NCBI GenBank assembly: GCA_011033025.1
Contig: WFMF01000496.1
Coordinates: 1-64,000, forward strand
From: Beroe forskalii
Lineage: Eukaryota > Ctenophora > Nuda > Beroida > Beroidae
Reading direction: 5' to 3'
DNA: 64,000 nucleotides
The position numbers and the translations under genes were made by a program. Below the pieces are notes generated by a model that saw only the letters and a list, made by a program, of their open reading frames with translations, searched no databases and was not told where the DNA came from. Shown here one piece after another: positions 3,601-45,490 of the stretch; position 1 is the first letter of the stretch, and every line of letters starts with the position of its first letter.

Positions 3601-5833
3601 GTGCGCCAATTCACCACTTTGTAATAAGAGGATGACGTCATCAATTCACCACTTTGTAATAAGATAATGACGTCATCAATTCACTACTTAGAACTAAGAT
3701 AATGACGTCATCATCTCATCCAGGTCAGTACAGCGCAGGTCCCACGCAGACGGTTACTGATTGGCTGAATGACCAAGTAGCCCCGCCCTACTGGGTGCCC
3801 AACCACCTCCAGGCGGGTACAGCGCGGTACCAATTAGACGGTTAATAATTCTGAATTACCAATAGCCCCGACCAACCACCGTTACGGTAATTATACCTAA
3901 TAAGGGATAATTCTAATTATCAAACGACCGGTTACCATGGTAACAGTAGTAGCAAACAACCGGTTCACTATGGTAACCAGTTACCATTTCTCAATAAATC
4001 CGGTTACCATTCCTCAATAAATCCGGTTACGGTTTCGGTTGCCTGAAAACGCCTGCTTAACCGGTATTTCGGTTCGGTTAACCGACCGATTACCCTCAAC
4101 GGTTAATTGCAAAATCAAAATATTTGGTTTCGGTTGCCTGAAAATGCCCGGTTGGCTGAAAAACTCAAATTTCATTGATGCAGTTTCATCAGGAATAGGA
4201 CGAGTAGAGTGGTTACAAACATCATCATTTGCAACAAATAAACGTCGTGTTCTTGTGATATTTCAATGAATATATCATTCATATTTCTGATTAAATTGGC
4301 GACGATAATCCCATGATTTTCGAAAGCTCCTGATTTTAAAATTTATCGTATCAATATCATTGAAAGTTTCAACTTGCTCCTCAAGAAGAAATCCTATTCT
4401 ACACACCTGGTTACGTGTTGCAGCAGTTGCAAAAAAGCGTTTGTTCCCCTTGCTCACAAGCACCACTGTCGAGCCTGCGGCAACGGATATTGTTCTGATT
4501 GTTCTACTAAGGTAAACAAGACGCTGACATTAAATTGGTCTGATTGTTCTAGTAAGGTAAACAAGACTCTAACATTTGATTGCACTCAACTGTGTTCCTA
4601 CTGTTCTCGGAACAACTCAAATTTGTTTCCCAAAATGTTTATTCCTGCAGAGCAAACCAGAAAACAGTGACAGCTCGAACTGAAGTTTTGTGTGCGCGGT
4701 CTGTACGCCGCGCACATGTAACTGCAATTCGAACTGCCGCCGTAATTCTATTTCCTCGCAGAGCAAACCAGTGCCGTGGAGGGGATGGGGCCCGGATCCC
4801 GTTAGAGTTTGTGACAAGTGCTTCTCTACCTCCGGTTTGTAATCAATATCAATGATCAATATGTGTCACATTCTGTGGGTACTGCTTCAACTTTGTTTTT
4901 TCCATTTTTTGTTTCTTTTTTCGTTAACTTGTTATCTTTGCTACCTCCGATTAGTATAAAGATTGTAACATTCTTCAACATAAAATTACTTTATGTTATT
5001 CTATTTAATTTAGTTTTACAGAATTCATTTAATTATTATTTGCATTAGTGAACGTCGTTCATTTCAGACGCACAGTTGACGGAAGAGTACTTGCCACCCG
5101 ACGATGTGACTGCCTGGAAAGTAACGGAGTGCATCAAAACAGCTGCCTCGCTAGTCAAATCAGGTAAACTGTGACACAGATGTCACACAGATAACCGATT
5201 CCGAGCGCAATGCTGTAGTTTGCTTTTCATTAAATTTTTGTTGAAATTTGCTTTTCGAAACATTTCGAAAGAATGCGCAAATTTCAATGAAAATTCAAAT
5301 ATTTCCCACCAAATACTTGCCAATATGTAAGTTCCTATTTCAGTGGTAGAGGTTCCCGCCAGCATTGTAACAGATTCCGTGAGACCCGAGTATTGGATAC
5401 CTGACGTCGATATTATTGGTGGGTCATTTCATCTTTTGTAGAGTGCGGCAGTGCTTGGTGACGTCACATGCCCGTATATAGACCGAATTTCTCATCGTTT
5501 TTCTCATCTTATTGAGAAACCCTTCCAGTTCCACACTCAAAAGAGTGCTTCCAATAATTCCTCATCGAGCCGTAGTTCTGATCGAGCCATGTGTCTCATC
5601 GAGCTGTATTTCTGACTATATAAACCGTATTTCATCATGTGTCTCTTATTCTAAACGTTAACTCTCCCCCAGAGTGCTACCAATGCAAGAGTCCCGCACT
5701 GACAGACAAACACCACTGCCGCAACTGCGGACAAGGCTTTTGTGACGCCTGTACGACAAGCAGACGTCCTGTTCCAGACCGGGGCTGGGATTACCCAGTC
5801 AGAGTGTGTGACACGTGCAATCTGACGCTGTGA
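545..5833 (+). CDS. ZFYVE1: ZFYVE1/DFCP1-like double-FYVE protein, 3' part of gene (exons listed separately)
   Basis: Gene entering from the left edge; only the C-terminal half is present. Eight exons join in consistent phase: about 642-759, 3308-3377, 4184-~4254, 4386-4511, 4762-4834, 5068-5163, 5344-5418 and 5673-5833. The product has a cysteine-rich segment ending in EIVHVWPG, a helical linker, FYVE1 (HKHHCRACG), a second linker, then FYVE2 (DKHHCRNCG) ending in VRVCDTCNLTL and stop. Two tandem FYVE fingers with GWGP- and GWDYP-type turns before VRVCD are the arrangement of vertebrate ZFYVE1, which binds phosphatidylinositol-3-phosphate on omegasomes and ER/Golgi membranes. The N-terminal nucleotide-binding domain of that family would lie off the window. 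Family assignment is strong; the exact starts of exons 1, 3 and 4 are inferred. Confidence 0.85.
642..759 (+). CDS. ZFYVE1: ZFYVE1-like exon: cysteine-rich segment before the FYVE domains
   Basis: Reads ..YVIECDKCGVIYRSRQYWYG.. and ends ..SEIVHVWPG in phase 0, followed by donor GTAAGT at 760. The CxxC, RSRxYWYGN and EIVHVWPG pieces match what I recall of the ZFYVE1 region just upstream of the FYVE pair. The acceptor is one of the repeated cgcag|g sites (AG at 595-596 or 640-641); I chose the second because it is closest. The exon begins inside a 45-bp tandem repeat described separately. If an upstream acceptor is used, the protein gains 15-residue CDKC repeats. Confidence 0.7.
1811..1905. repeat. 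GTGGCGTC minisatellite
   Basis: About eight imperfect units of roughly 12 bp, gtggcgtcnccg, inside the large intron and much more GC-rich than the surrounding DNA. It lies between the two halves of the diverged direct duplication (1400-1640 and 1953-2190). Confidence 0.75.
2330..2485. repeat. GC-rich hairpin element in intron
   Basis: Arms ccctgcagttgtaag (about 2363-2377) and cttacaactgtaggg (about 2465-2479) are near-exact reverse complements about 100 bp apart. This is compatible with a MITE or SINE remnant; family not recognised. Confidence 0.5.
3308..3377 (+). CDS. ZFYVE1: ZFYVE1-like exon: helical linker
   Basis: Acceptor gatttcag ends at 3307 and donor GTCAGT starts at 3378. The 70-nt exon enters in phase 0, matching the phase-0 end at 759, and leaves in phase 1. 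It encodes ..NIGRYVLDQLYCVSETIG, an amphipathic stretch that resembles the helix before FYVE1 in ZFYVE1 and also the segment before FYVE2 (5068-5163). The exon is short, so the assignment rests on phase, good splice sites and position. Confidence 0.65.
3605..3722. repeat. CRE-containing minisatellite, three ~36-bp units
   Basis: Three units of the form tcaattcaccactttgtaat + aaga.aatgacgtca in the intron after 3377. It is the same unit as the arrays at 13685-13850 and 25472-25600 and as the interior of the AATAGGCGGTT MITE. Confidence 0.75.
3930..4165. repeat. GGTTAACCGG-type repeat, relative of the LIM-gene intron element
   Basis: Multiple ccggttacc / ggtttcggtt / ggttaaccg pieces. It shares atttctcaataaatccggtt and the acggttaattg..aaaatcaaaatatt block with the element that forms intron 37623-37813, so the same repeat family sits in introns of both genes. 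A decayed relative is at 52915-53000. The ends here are not crisp and no target duplication is evident. Confidence 0.7.
4184..4254 (+). CDS. ZFYVE1: probable ZFYVE1-like exon, linker with VEWL
   Basis: Acceptor gatgcag ends at 4183. It continues phase 1 from the previous exon to give V-SSGIGRVEWLQTSSFAT, which resembles the AVTSWLTDQIAP-type helix expected just before FYVE1. The donor is uncertain: GTGATA at 4255 would leave phase 0, which fits the next exon. The polypyrimidine tract is poor. Confidence 0.45.
4386..4511 (+). CDS. ZFYVE1: ZFYVE1-like exon: first half of FYVE1
   Basis: Encodes ..LVTCCSSCKKAF..HKHHCRACGNGYC..DCSTK, then donor GTAAAC at 4512. CSSC, the KHHCRxCG core (PI3P-binding basic motif) and the CxxC pair give the first six zinc ligands. 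The start is either acceptor tcaag (4385), in frame with the previous exon, or ttgcag (4423). The last 18 bases and the donor are repeated 45 bp downstream, see the duplicated donor entry. Confidence 0.85.
4494..4580 (+). repeat. 45-bp tandem duplication of exon end plus donor
   Basis: The piece tctgattgttctactaag + gtaaacaagac at 4494 recurs at 4539 with a single change in the exon part. AGGT lies at 4510-4513 and 4555-4558, exactly 45 bp apart. Either donor keeps the reading frame, so a 15-residue insertion after DCSTK is possible. Confidence 0.85.
4664..4743. mobile_element. hairpin MITE P1 (short copy) in ZFYVE1-like intron
   Basis: Starts cagtgacagctcgaactg and ends cgaactgccgccg, with a central gcgcgg/ccgcgc stem. 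It is a short form of the GTGACAGTTCGAACTGCAG family, sitting only 18 bp before the acceptor of the next exon (4762). Confidence 0.7.
4762..4834 (+). CDS. ZFYVE1: ZFYVE1-like exon: second half of FYVE1
   Basis: Acceptor tcgcag ends at 4761. It reads SKPVPWRGWGPDPVRVCDKC then FSTS, joining CSTK in phase 0 and completing the last two zinc ligands (CDKC). Leaves in phase 1 at donor GTTTGT (4835). Confidence 0.85.
5068..5163 (+). CDS. ZFYVE1: ZFYVE1-like exon: linker between FYVE domains
   Basis: Acceptor atttcag at 5067, donor GTAAAC at 5164. Phase 1 in and phase 1 out. Encodes DAQLTEEYLPPDDVTAWKVT..TAASLVKS. The DAQ start and the helical ending match the inter-FYVE linker of ZFYVE1. Confidence 0.8.
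5344..5418 (+). CDS. ZFYVE1: ZFYVE1-like exon: RPEYWIP segment before FYVE2
   Basis: Acceptor atttcag at 5343, donor GTGGGT at 5419, phase 1 in and out. Encodes VEVPASIVTDSVRPEYWIPDVDII. The R-P-x-Y-W-x-P motif just ahead of a FYVE finger is characteristic of this family. Confidence 0.85.
5673..5833 (+). CDS. ZFYVE1: ZFYVE1-like last exon: FYVE2 and stop
   Basis: Acceptor ctcccccag ends at 5672. Encodes ECYQCKSP..DKHHCRNCGQGFCDACTTSRRPVPDRGWDYPVRVCDTCNLTL and TGA at 5831-5833. Eight cysteine/histidine zinc ligands of a FYVE finger are all present. The exact human-like ending a few residues after the last CxxC supports this as the natural C-terminus. Confidence 0.92.
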
Positions 5834-14639: not shown

Positions 14640-15120
14640 TATATTTCTTAATTTCTACAAATCGTCCACGCGAACTCACGTGCTTAAATATAGCAACCTG
14701 ATCTAATTTCACGTACATAAGTCGTATTTGAACTTATTTCAACGTAACCAAGTCGAAAATCCCGTGTAAATATCAATTTCTTCAAATCCCCTAATTTCTA
14801 CGAAACGTCCGTGTGTACTCACGTGCTGAAAAATGGCAACCAGATCTCATTTCACGTGCATTTGTCGTATTTAAACTCATTCCAACATAATCAAGTCGAA
14901 AATCCAGTGTAAACATTAATTTCTTTAAAACCTCCTAATTTCTACAAAACGTCCGTGTGTACTCACGTGCTGAAGTATAGCACATGCATCTTATTTCATG
15001 TGCATTAGTCGTATTTGAACCTCATTTCAACGTAATCAAGTCGAAAATCCCGTGTAAATATCAATTTCTTTAAATCCCCTAATTTCTACAAAACGTCCGC
15101 GTGAACTCACGTGCTCCACT
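14640..15120. repeat. ~145-bp satellite, three and a third units
   Basis: Units repeat taatttctacaaaacgtcc, actcacgtgctgaa, atttcacgtgcat and aagtcgaaaatcccgtgtaa. Each unit has a CACGTG box. Only in copy B, next to the hairpin at 14308-14460. Confidence 0.85.
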
Positions 15121-36089: not shown

Positions 36090-36209
36090 ATGGTGGACCT
36101 AGCTAAAACGCCCTGCTCTGGGTGCACTAAGACTCTGGTAGGGGAGGTGATTAGGGTCGGGGAATCTGACCATTTTCATGTGGACTGCTTCAAATGCTTC
36201 CAGTGTGAT
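36090..36209 (+). CDS. ABLIM: LIM gene exon 1: start codon and first half of LIM1
   Basis: ATG at 36090. The exon encodes MVDLAKTPCSGCTKTLVGEV then IRVGESDHFHVDCFKCFQCD, exactly 40 codons, then donor GTGAGT at 36210 (phase 0). It carries the first zinc site (C9, C12, H30, C33) and two ligands of the second. A non-coding 5' exon may exist upstream. Confidence 0.85.
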
Positions 36210-38734
36210 GTGAGTATAGGAATTAAACAGGAATTAAACAGTATTAAACAGTATTAAACTGGAGTATATCTTAAGTCTGTATCGTAAATTTTCGTAGTAT
36301 TTAAGTTTGATTCTTAACGAATATGCGCGCGGAATTCTACACAACAGTAGCTAAGTGTTGTGTAGAGTTGCGCGCGCAATTGTTAGTATTTAAATTCATC
36401 GAGCACTCCTTTTCCGCGTCTGAATCTTCAGCCATTATTGTCAGTGACAAACCCTCAAACTACACTCCGAACGTTTCTTGTCTTTTCTCACGAATCTTAA
36501 AGCATTCCTCGATCTGTAGATGCCAAAGATGCTGTAAGATGCTGCGATCACTATATGTCTATGTTAATCATTCCTGTCATCCCACTATCACTCTAAGCAA
36601 TCTGACTTCAAACCCTACGAACAATAAAACCAGGCGGCTGAAGGTCGACAACTTACTATTTTAACTTAGGATAATGACGTAACACTCGTTGACCCATTCA
36701 GCTTTATTGCAGTATGAAATACAGCTAAGGATTGATGAAAGGTCTCATTCAAACCCGTAGTTAGAATATCACCATCCCATGGAATCGCTAGGAACGACCT
36801 TTTAGAGTCAGAAAATGACAAGTTTACTATTTCTCGGGTGACAGTCACGGCCTTGAATCTTGTTCTTTTTGGCAGCTTGCAGGGTTTATTTTCTACAAAA
36901 CGAGAGCTTATAAAAGATCTGAATTCTGAATCTCGGTAGTAACTATAGTGAGAATATTGAGGAATTTGTCACTTTCAGCTGATCACATACCTACCAGCAA
37001 TACTGTGTGCTTTAGAGATGAATAAGAGAGAAAGATACAGATTTTTGCTCGGGTTAAAATACTAAAATAGCTTGCCGGAATTTACACTTTAGTAGGTAAA
37101 GAATGGAATGACTTGTAATTTTGCTGTCATCTGGCAAAGTTGTCGCAAATCCCTCTTTAACTCAAATAATTTGGTCAATTTGTAACTTATACAAATCGCT
37201 CTGCCATTCAAAAAACAAGGAAATGTCGGATTGCAATTATTTCAGGATGGATATTTGCCTTTAAAAGCATATCAAAAATATTTAAAAACACGTTTGATCT
37301 CTAAGTAAGAAAAGCGTTTTTGATCTTATCATACTGCGTGCTTTATCAAACACAAGGCAATATTTCATAACCATTATTTCAGAAACTTGTCGCCATTACT
37401 GGTTTCCTTCGCCCAATACAGCTATGAGCAAGTACTACTGTTCCAAGGAATACCAAAAGCTGTTCGAAACTAAACTAGACACCGGCGTTTTATTTTCAAA
37501 CACAAGGAAATATTTTTACATCCACCATGTGATAATCTCCTCGCCACAACTGGTTTCTTCGCCCGGGCAGCAAGTACTACTGTTCCAAGGACTACCACGA
37601 GCTATTTGGAACTAAATGCGTGGTCTGTATGCCAAACGTCCGGTGACCATTTCTCAATAAATCCGGTTCGGTTTACCGACCGTTTCTCCTAAACGGTTAA
37701 TTGTGAAAACAAAATATTCACTTACAGTTTCGGTTTGCTGAAGACGCCCGGTTAACCGGTATTTCGGTTAACCAGAATTTCGGTTTCGGTTAGGTTAACC
37801 GGTCGATTCCTAGGTCTGTACGAAGTACATCGAGGGGGAAGGGTTCACGGTTCAAGGAAGAAGTTACCACACGGAGTGCTTCAAGTGCTCCAAGTGCGAA
37901 GGTTCGTTTTCTGTTGTTTTTTTCTATCGAAGGTTCGTATATTGTTCGTTTGTTTGTTTTTCAAGCGCAGTTTGGATATGTGCTGTAAGATTTTAAATGT
38001 TGTTGTAGAACCACGTAGGAGAAAATCAAATTTTTCAATGAGATTGCTGGAATCAAATTTCCTAAATTTAAGTAATTATAAAATTTTCGCTATTCTGAAT
38101 CATGCCTTTACTTTCAAACTTCAATTGGAAAAATATCTTACAGTTACACGACTCCATCACCCCTCACTCCTCAGGAAGTTTCAGTAGTGGCTGCCGCGTC
38201 CTATTCGAGGACAGCAAGCCCATCTGCGAGGACTGCCGCAACAAATCCACTGCCGCCCTCAACAAACCCTCGACCTGCAAGGGCTGCTCCAAACCCATCT
38301 CCGGGCGGAGCGTGATCGCCATGGACCGGGACTGGCATGTCGAGTGCTTCGCGTGCCATTACTGCCGTGTCCCACTGTCCGGGGAGTACATGATCAAGGA
38401 TGGAGACCCTTACTGCGAGGCGGACTACCTCAATCTCTTCGGGCAGAAGTGTCAGATCTGTGAGGAGTTTATCGTGGGTCGTGTGTTGCAGGCGGGGGGC
38501 GTGAGTTACCATAACGCGTGTTTGGCGTGTCACGTGTGTGGGAAGGGGTTCGCGGAGGGGCATGATATTTTCACGCAGGATGGCGTGTTCTGGCACACGG
38601 AGTGTGAACAGTACTTGGAGGAAGGAGAAGAGGGGGAGGAGTATTTAGAGGAGGAGGAAGAGGAGTTGATTGTGGGTGGAGGAGTGGATAAATTAGGCGA
38701 GAATATGGCGGATTTGGCGGTCAATGATCAGTGA
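36090..38734 (+). CDS. ABLIM: ABLIM/UNC-115-type protein with four LIM domains (exons listed separately)
   Basis: Exons 36090-36209, a broken exon near 37383-37622, 37814-37901 and 38175-38734. Together they give four LIM zinc fingers in the order and spacing of actin-binding LIM proteins: LIM1 CSGC..HFHVDC..CFQCD, LIM2 CVVC..YHTEC..CSKC..CEDC, LIM3 CKGC..WHVEC..CHYC..YCEADY, LIM4 CQIC..YHNAC..CHVC..WHTEC. Linker phrases such as LFGTKC, GEGFTVQGRSYH, PICEDC and YCEADYLNLFGQKC follow the ABLIM pattern. In ABLIM the LIM block lies at the N-terminus and a villin headpiece at the C-terminus binds F-actin. Here a very acidic 40-residue tail and a stop follow LIM4 directly, so the headpiece is absent from this transcript form. 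The second half of LIM1 is disrupted in the sequence as given. Confidence 0.85.
37383..37622 (+). pseudogene. ABLIM: LIM gene exon 2, tandemly duplicated and disrupted in both copies
   Basis: Copy 1 (acceptor ttatttcag ends 37382) continues exon 1 in phase 0 as KLVAITGFLRP and then shifts frame before MSKYYCSKEYQKLFETK. Copy 2 (about 37530-37622) gives FLRPGSKYYCSKDYHELFGT then KCV in the frame that joins exon 3, but has stops upstream and no AG acceptor before the needed start; a one-base indel in ggtttc.ttcgcc separates the two readings. The copies are offset by about 142-150 bp. Residual assembly indels, an allelic tandem duplication or a truly broken gene would all explain this. Confidence 0.6.
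37623..37813 (+). mobile_element. introner-like TIR element forming an entire intron of the LIM gene
   Basis: Direct repeat ggtctgta at 37622-37629 and 37813-37820 flanks a 183-bp element (37630-37812). The element begins tgccaaacgtccggtgacc and ends ggttaaccggtcgattccta; its ends are imperfect inverted repeats sharing the CGnCCGGT core. The donor GTCTGT comes from the left repeat, and the acceptor AG is the element's last A plus the first G of the right repeat. Removal yields aaatgcgtg+gtctgtacgaag, i.e. KCVVCTKY, the uninterrupted start of LIM2. The 8-bp target duplication fits hAT-type transposition. The interior matches the repeat at 3930-4165. Confidence 0.85.
37814..37901 (+). CDS. ABLIM: LIM gene exon 3: LIM2 zinc-binding part
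   Basis: Encodes (V)CTKYIEGEGFTVQGRSYHTE then CFKCSKCE and one base, phase 1, donor GTTCGT at 37902. Joins the phase-0 end of the preceding exon to complete CVVC. Eleven bases around the donor (gaaggttcgt) recur 31 bp downstream. Confidence 0.88.
38175..38734 (+). CDS. ABLIM: LIM gene last exon: end of LIM2, LIM3, LIM4, acidic tail
   Basis: Acceptor cctcag ends at 38174; phase 1 joining gives EGSFSSGCRVLFEDSKPICE. LIM3 and LIM4 follow with all sixteen zinc ligands. After WHTECEQ comes an acidic run (YLEEGEEGEEYLEEEEEELI) and a short tail to TGA at 38732-38734. GC content is much higher than the surroundings, as expected of a real exon. AATAAA at 38946-38951 is a candidate poly(A) signal. The ORFs on the other strand are shadows. 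Confidence 0.93.
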
Positions 38735-43100: not shown

Positions 43101-45490
43101 GGCTTGAAGTGGAGCAATCAGTTATACCACTACCAAACCGGATTAACTGATCACTCCAAAACCATGAATTTAGCCATTACTTCGTTGTCAGGCGTTGCCT
43201 GACCACCTCGTTTTGACGTAGGTGCAGCCTATAGCCAATAGCTCAATCGCTAAATAGTGAGGCCGTGAACGGGCTAAATTGTTGGACTTGGAGGCTCGAG
43301 CGATCAGTTATTCCCGCTTTGAGTAGTGGTATACCACTACCAAACTGGAATAATTACTGATCCCTCCAAGTCCGCGAATTTAACCAATAACCATCCAACC
43401 ATCGATCAATGCGTGTGCTGTACACTCATATGGGTTCTTGGTGCACTCTAATACATCCTCGATATAGACCTGTAAAAGTGAAATAACGTCGCAGGATTGA
43501 AATAAATATCAATTACACATGTATTCAAATCAACAATTACACATTAAATTAATTAAATTAATCAAATTGACATTAAATTAAATGTCAATCAAATTAATCA
43601 CATCTGTTATCGCCACCGACGACACTTTATTCGTCGTCTTAACCCTACTTGCCAGCGCCGGCTTACACTTCTTCCAGAACATTAAACAGGATAATAACCG
43701 AGTCCTTCCCCCTCCTCCTTCTTCTCCCCCCAAGGCCGCGCTGCGGCGTGATGTTCCGTACTCGAACACGTCTATAACAGGGTTGTTATAGCAACGGATA
43801 GTTCTGAAGATCTGGGTGTAGAGGGGCACGTGGTAGATCATGAAACCGACCAAGCCTAGGAAGAGGAGGACTCCGGCAGCAAGTTTTAGTTTAACCTGAA
43901 ATTGAAAAGAATATGGTAGGAATTCAAGGAATTTGTTGAAATTTGATTGAAAAACCATGACCCTCATATTGTAATATGTCAGGCTGTTTATTCCTAAATT
44001 GAATCGATCAATAAAAGAAGATCGTTGACATTTCCAGTGGAACGAAATTTGAAAAATTGAAAAAAATTGAAAAAGTTACAGAAATTTTCAAAAAAAATCA
44101 AATTTTATATTTACCGTAATCGGGAACTGCTCCGTGCGATAATCATCCCTTTCTGGACTCCGATACCTCCGGAACTGACTCATGAGTGTAATCGAACACG
44201 CTGCCAAAATAACCGAAATGTAGAAATGAACAAGGAATGTCGTAATAATCCGCACACGTTCCGAGTAGAGTTTTGGTTCCATCCGCCACGCTCTGATCGG
44301 ACGAGTCCGCACGATAACTTTAATGAGGTAAGTGCATTTGGTGCAACGCCGGGTGTTGGTTTCTTGAAGGTTCTGAACGAGGCAATGGCGGTGGACGAGA
44401 GAGTGGTTGCCGGAGCAGAGACAAGGGATCAGGAGGTTTTCTCTCGTGTCACTGACCTGGCAAACCCTGGAGGGGAGAAGGGTTTAGAGGAAGGATCAGG
44501 GAGGAGGAAGGGTGGGACTTGAGAAAACGGTCAACTTCAAGAATAAGGGGTCGCGGCGTAAGTTTGCGCGGCGTAAAAACATTGAAATGGCATGTCTGTA
44601 CGCCGCGCAAACTTACGCCGCGCACACGAAAGTCGAAACTACAGATCGAACTGTCACTGTTAGACATTACCTGCACATCATGTCAGGACTGATAATATCC
44701 TCCGCTACAGACTCTGCCGGGGAACTGCACATGGGAAGGATCATAAGATGGTGTTTAAATTTAAGATTATAGGAGGAGGGCGAAATATGTCACAGGGAAT
44801 TTGCAGGGTTTGGAGAATGGGGATGTGGGAATGGGGACAAAAGGAGAGGAATGGTTTGCACGATGATTATTAAGGGGTTGAAATGTCAAGAAAAGAAAAA
44901 AATTCCGGGATATGAGAAGCAGGGCATGGGGTGGGACAAGGAGGGATATAAGGAGTTGAGCACTTGAGCAGGTACTTGACATTAGGAATGGCAGGGACTC
45001 GCGAGCCAGACTTGATACCATTACACCAACTGTCCATTAGAAGATTAGACATTTAACCTGCACATCATGTCAGGACGGATGATGTCCTCCTCAACAGAAG
45101 CTGACGGAGTACTGGAGATGGGAAGGAGGTGTCGGCAGGGACCGTGTGAATTACTGCTGTAAGTTTCCCCTTGCGAGCTGCTGTTACCGTTCTGTGAGGG
45201 AATGGAATGATAAGTAAGGTTATGGCCTTCTCATGTTTATAGGTGAAAAACCAGTTGCACAGTGTAAGAAAATCTTTGGGCCGGATAATTTTATAAAAAT
45301 TCAATCACAGTTCCAATATATTTCTCACCGGTGTTTTGATGCAGGACCCATTGGTCTTCTCCTTCTTTTCCTTCTTCTTATAACCATTCCGGACTCCCCC
45401 ATTGGAATGAATCGTGACCGTAGTCGAGCCCATGACGTGATCGTCCCATCCTATGTCAGAGCGGTTCCGAGGGGAGGAGCATGGCACGGA
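39989..45490 (-). CDS. unrecognised membrane-protein gene(s), exons listed separately
   Basis: Several minus-strand exons have good splice sites and mutually consistent phase: about 45487-45329, 45191-45058, 44292-44115, 43895-43644, 43469-~43400. The conceptual chain has a basic/serine-rich part, a cysteine-containing segment ending RPDMMCR, a first membrane helix (ITTFLVHFYISVILAACSIT), a charged loop, a second helix (KLAAGVLLFLGLVGFMIYHV) and ECTKNPYECTA. Two more C-terminal-looking exons lie at 40465-40372 and 40126-39989, but CACGTG and CCAAT clusters at 42056-42599 fall between, so there may be two genes. The family is not recognised; a GPCR or a small multi-pass protein of the Frag1/DRAM kind are possible guesses only. 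Confidence 0.5.
40240..40371. mobile_element. hairpin MITE P1 abutting a stop codon
   Basis: Ends cagtggcagttcaacttc and cagttcgaactgtcaccgc; interior gtttgtgcggcgtacag facing acgccgcgcac. Its right end touches the TAA (40374-40372, minus strand) of the next exon. Confidence 0.85.
40372..40465 (-). CDS. candidate C-terminal exon EDDFNKHGRISVESSS..
   Basis: Acceptor tatcgtag ends at 40466 (reading leftwards). The frame gives EDDFNKHGRISVESSSPLTA then LRRLSQGATQ and TAA, with no obvious donor before the P1 hairpin starts. The serine-rich RRLSQ ending looks like a cytoplasmic tail with phosphorylation sites. Either the hairpin insertion created this ending by replacing a donor, or it is an alternative last exon. 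Modest support. Confidence 0.35.
40500..42040. other. AT-rich non-coding stretch
   Basis: A CRE-MITE remnant at about 41505-41580 (aataggtggtggtaatta / tatccgcctgtaatttttcg) and a gcacgtgcgtacatactgca piece at 41280. No exon supported. Confidence 0.35.
42056..42106. promoter_or_regulatory. three CACGTG E-boxes
   Basis: CACGTG at 42056, 42069 and 42101, in contexts gatcacgtgg, accacgtgac and gtcacgtgat. The GTCACGTGA form is the preferred site of USF/TFE/MITF bHLH-zip factors. With the CCAAT cluster 375 bp to the right it suggests a promoter, but no transcription start is visible. Confidence 0.5.
42480..42599. promoter_or_regulatory. four CCAAT (NF-Y) boxes in 120 bp
   Basis: ttgaccaatcag at CCAAT 42480 and 42524; ctgattggtc and ttgattggcc with ATTGG at 42562 and 42595. 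Two in each orientation, facing each other, as in bidirectional or housekeeping promoters. A smaller pair is at 49355 and 49394. Confidence 0.5.
43030..43385. mobile_element. two copies of an inverted-repeat element (ttggacttggnggct)
   Basis: Copy 1 about 43036-43170 and copy 2 about 43209-43385 share agccaatagct..aaatagtgagg.. and aacgggctaaat.gttggactt. Each ends in sequence complementary to its own middle (gatcagtta..taactgatca; ttggacttggagg..cctccaagtcc). A caggcgttgcctg palindrome separates them. Probably MITEs of an unassigned family. Confidence 0.7.
43400..43469 (-). CDS. exon with ECTKNPYECTA
   Basis: Acceptor ttttacag ends at 43470 (reading leftwards). Encodes VYIEDVLECTKNPYECTAHA then LIDG, phase 0 in. 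The donor GTTGGA at 43399 is weak; otherwise the frame stops at TAA 43382-43380 after GWMVIG. The paired cysteines suggest an extracellular or lumenal loop. Confidence 0.5.
43644..43895 (-). CDS. exon with membrane helix KLAAGVLLFLGLVGFMIYHV
   Basis: Acceptor aatttcag ends at 43896 (reading leftwards). Encodes VKLKLAAGVLLFLGLVGFMI, YHVPLYTQIFRTIRCYNNPV, IDVFEYGTSRRSAALGGEEG and beyond; frame open to TAA at about 43580. Donor choice is uncertain: GTTAAG at 43643 gives phase 0 to the next exon, and an earlier donor is possible because the glycine/glutamate run looks unlike the rest. One clear transmembrane helix. Confidence 0.55.
44115..44292 (-). CDS. exon with membrane helix ITTFLVHFYISVILAACSIT
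   Basis: Encodes AWRMEPKLYSERVRIITTFL, VHFYISVILAACSITLMSQF, RRYRSPERDDYRTEQFPIT, then donor GTAAAT at 44114. The acceptor gatcag before 44292 completes the phase of the 45058-45191 exon; aaag before 44317 is the alternative. One transmembrane helix followed by a strongly charged loop that leads in phase into the next helix exon. Confidence 0.6.
44527..44662. mobile_element. hairpin MITE P1 just past a donor site
   Basis: tcgcggcgtaagtttgcgcg facing cgcgcaaacttacgccgcgc around gtaaaaacattgaaatggc. Right end cagatcgaactgtcactgtt lies about 10 bp from the GTAATG donor of the exon-like copy at 44671. Confidence 0.8.
44671..44740 (-). pseudogene. duplicate of the RPDMMC exon end
   Basis: Frame reads ILPMCSSPAESVAEDIISPD then MMCR with donor GTAATG at 44670. 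Compare LPISSTPSASVEEDIIRPDM in the upstream exon 45058-45191. Only the last 24 or so codons are kept and no phase-compatible acceptor is obvious. It is either a decayed exon duplicate or a mutually exclusive alternative exon. Confidence 0.55.
45058..45191 (-). CDS. exon NGNSSSQGETYSS..RPDMMC
   Basis: Acceptor ccctcacag ends at 45192 (reading leftwards), donor GTTAAA at 45057. 134 nt, phase 0 in and phase 2 out. Encodes NGNSSSQGETYSSNSHGPCR, HLLPISSTPSASVEEDIIRP, DMMC. Serine-rich with possible N-glycosylation (NGNSS) and two cysteines; role unknown. Confidence 0.55.
45329..45487 (-). CDS. exon GWDDHVMGSTTVTIHSNGG..
   Basis: Ends in ..KKKEKKEKTNGSCIKTP, phase 0, donor GTGAGA at 45328. Start uncertain: the first bases on this strand (gacatgtaatccgtgccatg) are the piece that is repeated several times just upstream in 45474-45730. 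Lysine-rich patch, no family recognised. Confidence 0.5.

Follow-up and report, generated by a model that had tools for sequence, protein, structure and literature searches.

Background

The origin of new introns is a long-standing question. The introners of Micromonas and Aureococcus were reportedly recognised by Huff et al. in 2016 as introns made of DNA transposons with target duplications; like the copies described here they take one of their two splice sites from the element and the other from the target, but their hosts are unrelated and we liken the two by description, not by sequence. A single plant case, a Ds-made intron in maize, is said to have been described by Giroux in 1994. Ds is a hAT element, and the maize case thus resembles ours in that a new intron appears to have come from such an element, but here a single genome contains about twenty cases that belong to one family. 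Work by Gozashti et al. in 2025 reportedly deals with introners that were transferred horizontally. Ctenophora, to which the present host belongs, is frequently regarded as the sister group of all remaining animals.

According to Gozashti et al. 2022 (PMC9860276), introners are present in 175 of 3,325 surveyed genomes and in only two animal groups. As portrayed there, they share with the present family their non-autonomous nature, inverted ends, target duplication and aquatic host, as well as splice sites divided between element and target, restored coding sequence and a large number of introns. The present family differs from this account in its ctenophore host and its hAT-type 8-bp duplications, and the seven splice registers that we derive below from its TA ends are our own reading of the family rather than that paper's. 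In a model of transposon-made introns (PMC3443670), a duplicated AGGT protosplice site provides both splice sites. This model agrees with the inner registers found here (3, 4 and 6), to which the TA ends of the element add two outer ones, GGT-first and AGG-last. The introner-linked introns of tunicates (PMC13326754) are alike in residing in an animal genome and in that transposons are discussed as their source, but they are mostly non-GT/AG, whereas the present ones are GT-AG. Our search of the open-licence literature brought up no account of introners in ctenophores, and Ctenophora is probably a new host phylum for a kind of element that is itself known.

Results

Anatomy of the insertion

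The window, that is the whole stretch of 64,000 nucleotides analysed here, corresponds to C576:1-64000 in an assembly of 216 Mb and 1134 contigs, and this assembly was searched for sister copies. The insertion consists of the following features.

37622..37629, plus strand: left target-site duplication GGTCTGTA, whose bases 2-3 are the donor GT
37630..37812, plus strand: putative 183-bp non-autonomous hAT-type element (introner copy), its ..TTCCTA end on the acceptor side
37813..37820, plus strand: right target-site duplication GGTCTGTA, whose first G completes the acceptor AG
37623..37813, plus strand: predicted intron of 191 bp, element plus one duplication, in phase 0 between the two valines of ..GTKCV/VCTKY..

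The two copies of GGTCTGTA are identical at 8 of 8 positions. The termini of the element, TGCCAAACGTCC.. on the left and ..GGTCGATTCCTA on the right, are decayed forms of the family ends TANNAAACGACCGG and CCGGTCGTTTNNTA, with 2 and 1 mismatches, respectively. The acceptor AG straddles the right border, its A being the final base of the element and its G base 1 of the duplication. The predicted GT..AG intron equals the element plus one duplication with zero leftover bases. Excision of 37623-37813 would join AAATGCGTG to GTCTGTACGAAG and yield K-C-V-V-C-T-K-Y; the spliced junction reads GTKCVVCTKYIEGEGF and the restored peptide is GTKCV-VCTKYIEGEGF. Without splicing, the LIM frame runs into a stop 7 codons further on. 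The first-pass annotation had drawn the same picture, namely an 8-bp direct repeat around a 183-bp element with imperfect inverted ends, a donor GT inside the left repeat, an acceptor AG across the border of element and right repeat, and a continuous KCVVCTKY of the second LIM domain (LIM2) after removal, and each of these points is seen in the present analysis, the last of them without a gap against four relatives.

The host LIM gene

The coding parts of the host gene are listed below; exon limits in this gene and in the sister genes were drawn by eye.

36090..36209, plus strand: first coding exon seen, start of LIM1, MVDLAKTPCSGC...CFKCFQCD, donor GTGAGT, ends by eye
37572..37622, plus strand: coding part directly upstream of the introner, KYYCSKDYHELFGTKCV, with a frame slip near 37555-37570 at its upstream boundary
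37814..37901, plus strand: downstream exon VCTKYIEGEGFTVQGRSYHTECFKCSKCE, donor GTTCGT, ends by eye
38175..38734, plus strand: last coding exon, remaining LIM2 to the stop, no internal stops, start by eye

The exons match an ABLIM-class (actin-binding-LIM-type) protein. Among the seven protein matches in all, the best shows 72% identity and the next, from the ctenophore Mnemiopsis leidyi (the closest named), 67%; none of the seven is near-identical. The joined LIM protein is 66-68% identical to four relatives and aligns with them gap-free at the junction, with zero residues gained or lost. An ABLIM paralog on C498, the single one that was readable, crosses the position of the window's intron in a single exon, KYYCAEDYHSLFGTLCNLCHKYIEGEG, and the apparent stop within its match sits beyond the C498 donor.

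Upstream of the insertion the exon at the LIM1/LIM2 boundary has an imperfect tandem copy at about 37343-37480, and in the remaining exon copy the frame slips by one base on the way from GFFAR to SKYYC, at a place where an intron interrupts the C498 paralog. For the part of LIM1 from CFQCD to SKYYC, an exon model was defeated by the tandem copy, the slip and the intron of C498. Tandem copy and slip may be biology or assembly error, and because of them the gene or its assembly may be damaged. TGTGAT closes the first LIM exon (36204-36209) and recurs at about 37524-37529, just before AATCTCCTCGCC; since it stands on both sides, the roughly 1.3 kb in between may be another insertion or duplication within this gene. 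Elsewhere in the window, the minus strand is open at 44088-44483 and there encodes a RING-variant domain (PF12906).

The element might sit unspliced inside an exon, the gene or this allele of it being in decay, a reading with which the slip, the tandem copy just upstream and the weak donor (GTCTGT matches 2 of the 4 variable positions of GTRAGT) would be in keeping. However, the downstream exons are open and likewise 66-68% identical to the four relatives, and a protein search for a second near-identical copy or an empty allele returned the C498 paralog and weaker LIM matches only. Since, moreover, the exact-intron arrangement is repeated in about 20 other genes, as set out below, we consider decay of the gene improbable as an explanation.

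Sister copies lying as predicted introns

Judged from their joined flanks at the sequence level, 21 distinct insertions, window included, lie as introns of otherwise open frames, two of the 21 intron sequences being paralogous repeats of another. Similar elements are thus found as introns in several unrelated genes.

C576: LIM gene of the window
C164: spectrin
C436: two insertions in one gene
C662, C648, C407, C1036 and C1: further intron-type insertions
C238: EF-hand gene, composite intron
C636: calmodulin-like gene
C672: beta-lactamase-like tandem pair
C1060: VPS4
C253: kinase
C291: carboxypeptidase; cysteine-rich repeat gene
C408: 2-oxoglutarate oxygenase
C462: papain-like gene; collagen gene
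C312/C536: sushi-like pair, by eye
C469: cathepsin

The duplications of these 21 insertions agree at 8/8 positions in 5, at 7/8 in 8, at 6/8 in 7 and at 4/8 in 1 (L085), and L047 is a composite event. The element ends lie 0-8 bp from the splice sites except in the composite or rearranged L047, L081, L083 and L086. Ten of 20 joined peptides carry a Pfam domain across the junction (LIM, spectrin, M14 peptidase, DIOX_N, C1 peptidase, kinase, beta-lactamase, two EF-hand proteins and collagen). The VPS4 and cathepsin peptides have domains on one or both sides of it, the cysteine-rich peptide of C291 gave a Pfam match under the cut-off only, and 7 of the 20 gave none. The carboxypeptidase and VPS4 junctions align gap-free to solved proteins.

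Among 20 stretches picked by eye for splice-like duplications, 10 were judged to be introns. In the end-pattern search that gave 292 places (see below), 14 of those with 0-1 mismatch end in GGT; 10 of the 14 were judged exact introns, one (C238) is part of a composite intron and three (C447, C607, the latter at an apparent existing acceptor, and C636:641328) were not judged introns. A further family copy, at about 1480-1810 of L016 (C509), lies in a gene which by eye is serine-peptidase-like, with CTGGCAGGATGG on both sides; this repeat offers no GT donor, and the copy is possibly an intron with a non-GT donor.

Uninterrupted paralogs

The carboxypeptidase gene of C291 is the only one among nine loci that is split at the junction residue. 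Seven of the other eight are unbroken across the junction and the eighth (C1) stops at it; the gene on C1036 matches over the whole query at 63% in one frame of 416 codons. Likewise, all 22 other matches to the papain-like gene of C462 are unbroken across its junction. These unbroken paralogs speak directly for a gain of the intron in the genes that bear the introner, and together with the open joined frames, the domains and the C498 paralog they point to insertion into uninterrupted coding exons.

These observations bear on whether the element entered an older intron at the LIM2 position secondarily, with no gain at all. Such a history would fit the whereabouts of the family at large, most copies being outside recognisable coding sequence and some lying in or at the edge of existing introns (L080 and L082). 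Yet the window's intron is the element plus one duplication with no remainder, either copy of the duplication consists of exon sequence, the C498 paralog lacks an intron at this position, and the carboxypeptidase and papain-like paralogs are unbroken at the sister sites. We regard secondary insertion as very unlikely, somewhat more so than decay of the gene, and the loss-free gain suggested by the first-pass annotation is supported by the sister introns, the uninterrupted paralogs and the gap-free LIM2 alignment.

The element family

Left ends within 3 mismatches were found at 370 places against 0 for a reversed-pattern control, and exact right ends at 147 against 1. Other end patterns gave 292 against 20 in the reversed control and 392 against 17 in the control, whereas one further pattern was poorly specific (17 places against 7). 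The family has inverted ends of the form TANNAAACGACCGG; full-length copies, TACCAAACGACCGG...CCGGTCGTTTCCTA, measure about 220-230 bp, and there are shorter forms near 112-119 bp. With the best of 9 offsets taken, 24 of 45 distinct two-ended copies have a perfect 8/8 duplication and 29 of 45 one of at least 7/8, these 45 having been drawn from 60 loci after setting aside 9 without an end pair and 6 repeats of the same copy. A genome search of the kind that the first-pass annotation had proposed thus gave hundreds of ends, many 8-bp duplications and some copies lying exactly as introns. Most copies lie outside recognisable coding sequence. On C181, at least 5 near-identical copies with the duplication GCGTGAGG are spread across one contig, which suggests segmental amplification.

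Possible siblings had been pointed out at 3930-4165 of the window. The plus-strand stretch 3918-4165 does contain rearranged partial relatives of the family, with TATCAAACGACCGG at 3918 and TAGCAAACAACCGG at 3950, but we found no right end there; the kinship stands, and as far as seen the piece is not an intron. The piece lies slightly upstream of an open reading frame with a FYVE zinc finger (4317-4670). At 14799, 14943 and 15087 of the window there are three similar copies, 144 bp apart, starting with CTAATTTCTACNAAACGTCCG, which recall the introner end and are otherwise different.

Affiliation with hAT transposons

In the duplications of 94 distinct sites (out of 100 listed), position 2 is occupied by T in 45 and position 7 by A, likewise in 45. 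A bias of the form nTnnnnAn is the hAT pattern, and it accompanies the 8-bp duplications described above. The genome contains 23 matches to the hAT dimerisation domain (PF05699). One of them, L108 (C122), is a hAT transposon with PF05699, 15-bp inverted ends CAGTAAACGACCGAG and the duplication GTCCACTA conserved at 8/8 positions; it alone among 10 readable hAT loci of the 23 has ends of the introner type on both sides. Because these ends differ from the introner end pattern at 2 of 12 specified bases, L108 is a relative and not a proven parent, and no parent transposase was found among the 10 readable loci. The transposon, at 807-3219 of L108, has subterminal CTCGGCCTCGGC repeats that are laid out like the CGGTT repeats of the introner. 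A protein search with L108 turned up a single, weaker relative on C281 (37%), with no such ends in the surrounding 3 kb. The hAT-type origin named at first sight agrees with the 8-bp duplications and with a transposase-bearing element whose inverted ends are near-identical. We infer that the introner copies were mobilised by a hAT transposase in trans.

The family data leave hardly any room for the route put forward for introner-like elements of fungi, in which introns travel as RNA and enter new sites by reverse splicing: the intron copies do resemble one another, as such a route would predict, but they have 8-bp duplications, inverted ends and a hAT-type target profile, they are inserted either way round with respect to genes (in L002, L092, L103 and L104 the other end serves as acceptor), and many copies are not introns. 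Tandem duplication of an AGGT-bearing exon segment with no transposon follows an identical AGGT logic according to PMC3443670, but for the window copy it is refuted by the family search, in which the sequence between the repeats proved to be a dispersed repeat at hundreds of sites and not exon sequence.

Splice registers and target choice

The element reads TA at either end. For an intron to be loss-free, GT has to stand at some distance from the left junction, with AG immediately preceding the corresponding point on the right, so with TA..TA ends any target that has AGGT in A+duplication+T can yield one. This is the case for duplications that begin with GGT, like that of the window, that have AGGT inside them or that finish in AGG. 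Of the seven possible registers five were seen, namely 1, 3, 4, 6 and 7, and copies in the opposite orientation (the four named above) also fit, with the other end as acceptor.

Duplications of the AGGT type are more frequent than expected in the sense direction (10 of 94 sites against 4.3, p 0.011) and in the antisense direction (10 of 94 against 5.2, p 0.033). AGG precedes exact left ends 27 times against about 10 expected among an estimated 523, a total obtained as 392/0.75 from a count that includes segmental duplicates. At least 90 open codons were found in 10 of 19 compatible and 11 of 83 incompatible strand-rows (p 0.0005), a crude test since both strands of one insertion count as separate rows, hand-chosen loci are included, the window row qualifies by a frame that is not that of the LIM domain, and L102 qualifies though not judged an intron. 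In a sample not chosen by target shape (L002-L030), 1 of 50 rows is compatible. L033, L035, L080, L100, L101 and L102 fit the rule yet were not judged introns; a compatible target alone is not enough for an intron. Insertions into exons would appear to be retained mainly when they splice.

Age of the copies

The window copy is 90.4% identical to the family majority, whereas 38 other copies have a median of 96.5%. Mean identity is 86% for intron-located copies and 95% for the other sampled copies, in a comparison that is unevenly sampled from mixed sources, most of the other copies being the best matches of the element search. The copies that lie as introns are older than the rest of the sample, and the family also has young copies. 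The first-pass annotation had called the gain recent; at some 90% identity against a median near 97%, the window copy gives this part of the proposal no support.

Discussion

The large family, its 8-bp duplications, the sister introns, the empty paralogs and the related hAT transposon together argue for a hAT-type introner family, and the many sister copies that lie as introns bear out the introner reading of the window. Very probably, 37630-37812 is a hAT-type non-autonomous introner that was inserted in an uninterrupted LIM exon and is predicted to be spliced out. We envisage that the element entered the exon at the target GGTCTGTA and that insertion duplicated these 8 bp. The A at its right end would then form AG with the G that opens the right duplication, GT would come from bases 2-3 of the left one, and the spliceosome would remove the element with one duplication and so restore the original codons; this removal is possible because the TA ends place AG and GT in register. 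Insertion, duplication, family, exact register, restored frames and uninterrupted paralogs are established as features of the assembled DNA, and splicing of the introner copies is what these features lead us to expect.

It seems rather probable to us that Ctenophora have, or had until recently, an intron-making system in the form of a hAT-derived introner family, with many introns genome-wide, and that its TA..TA ends widen loss-free splicing from the five registers of AGGT to seven, which would let one and the same element splice in different registers whichever way round it is inserted. A single animal genome here holds a register rule, paralogs with empty sites, young copies outside introns next to older ones that lie as introns, and a related hAT transposon, and the rate at which new introns arise, their choice of target and their survival thereby become directly countable.
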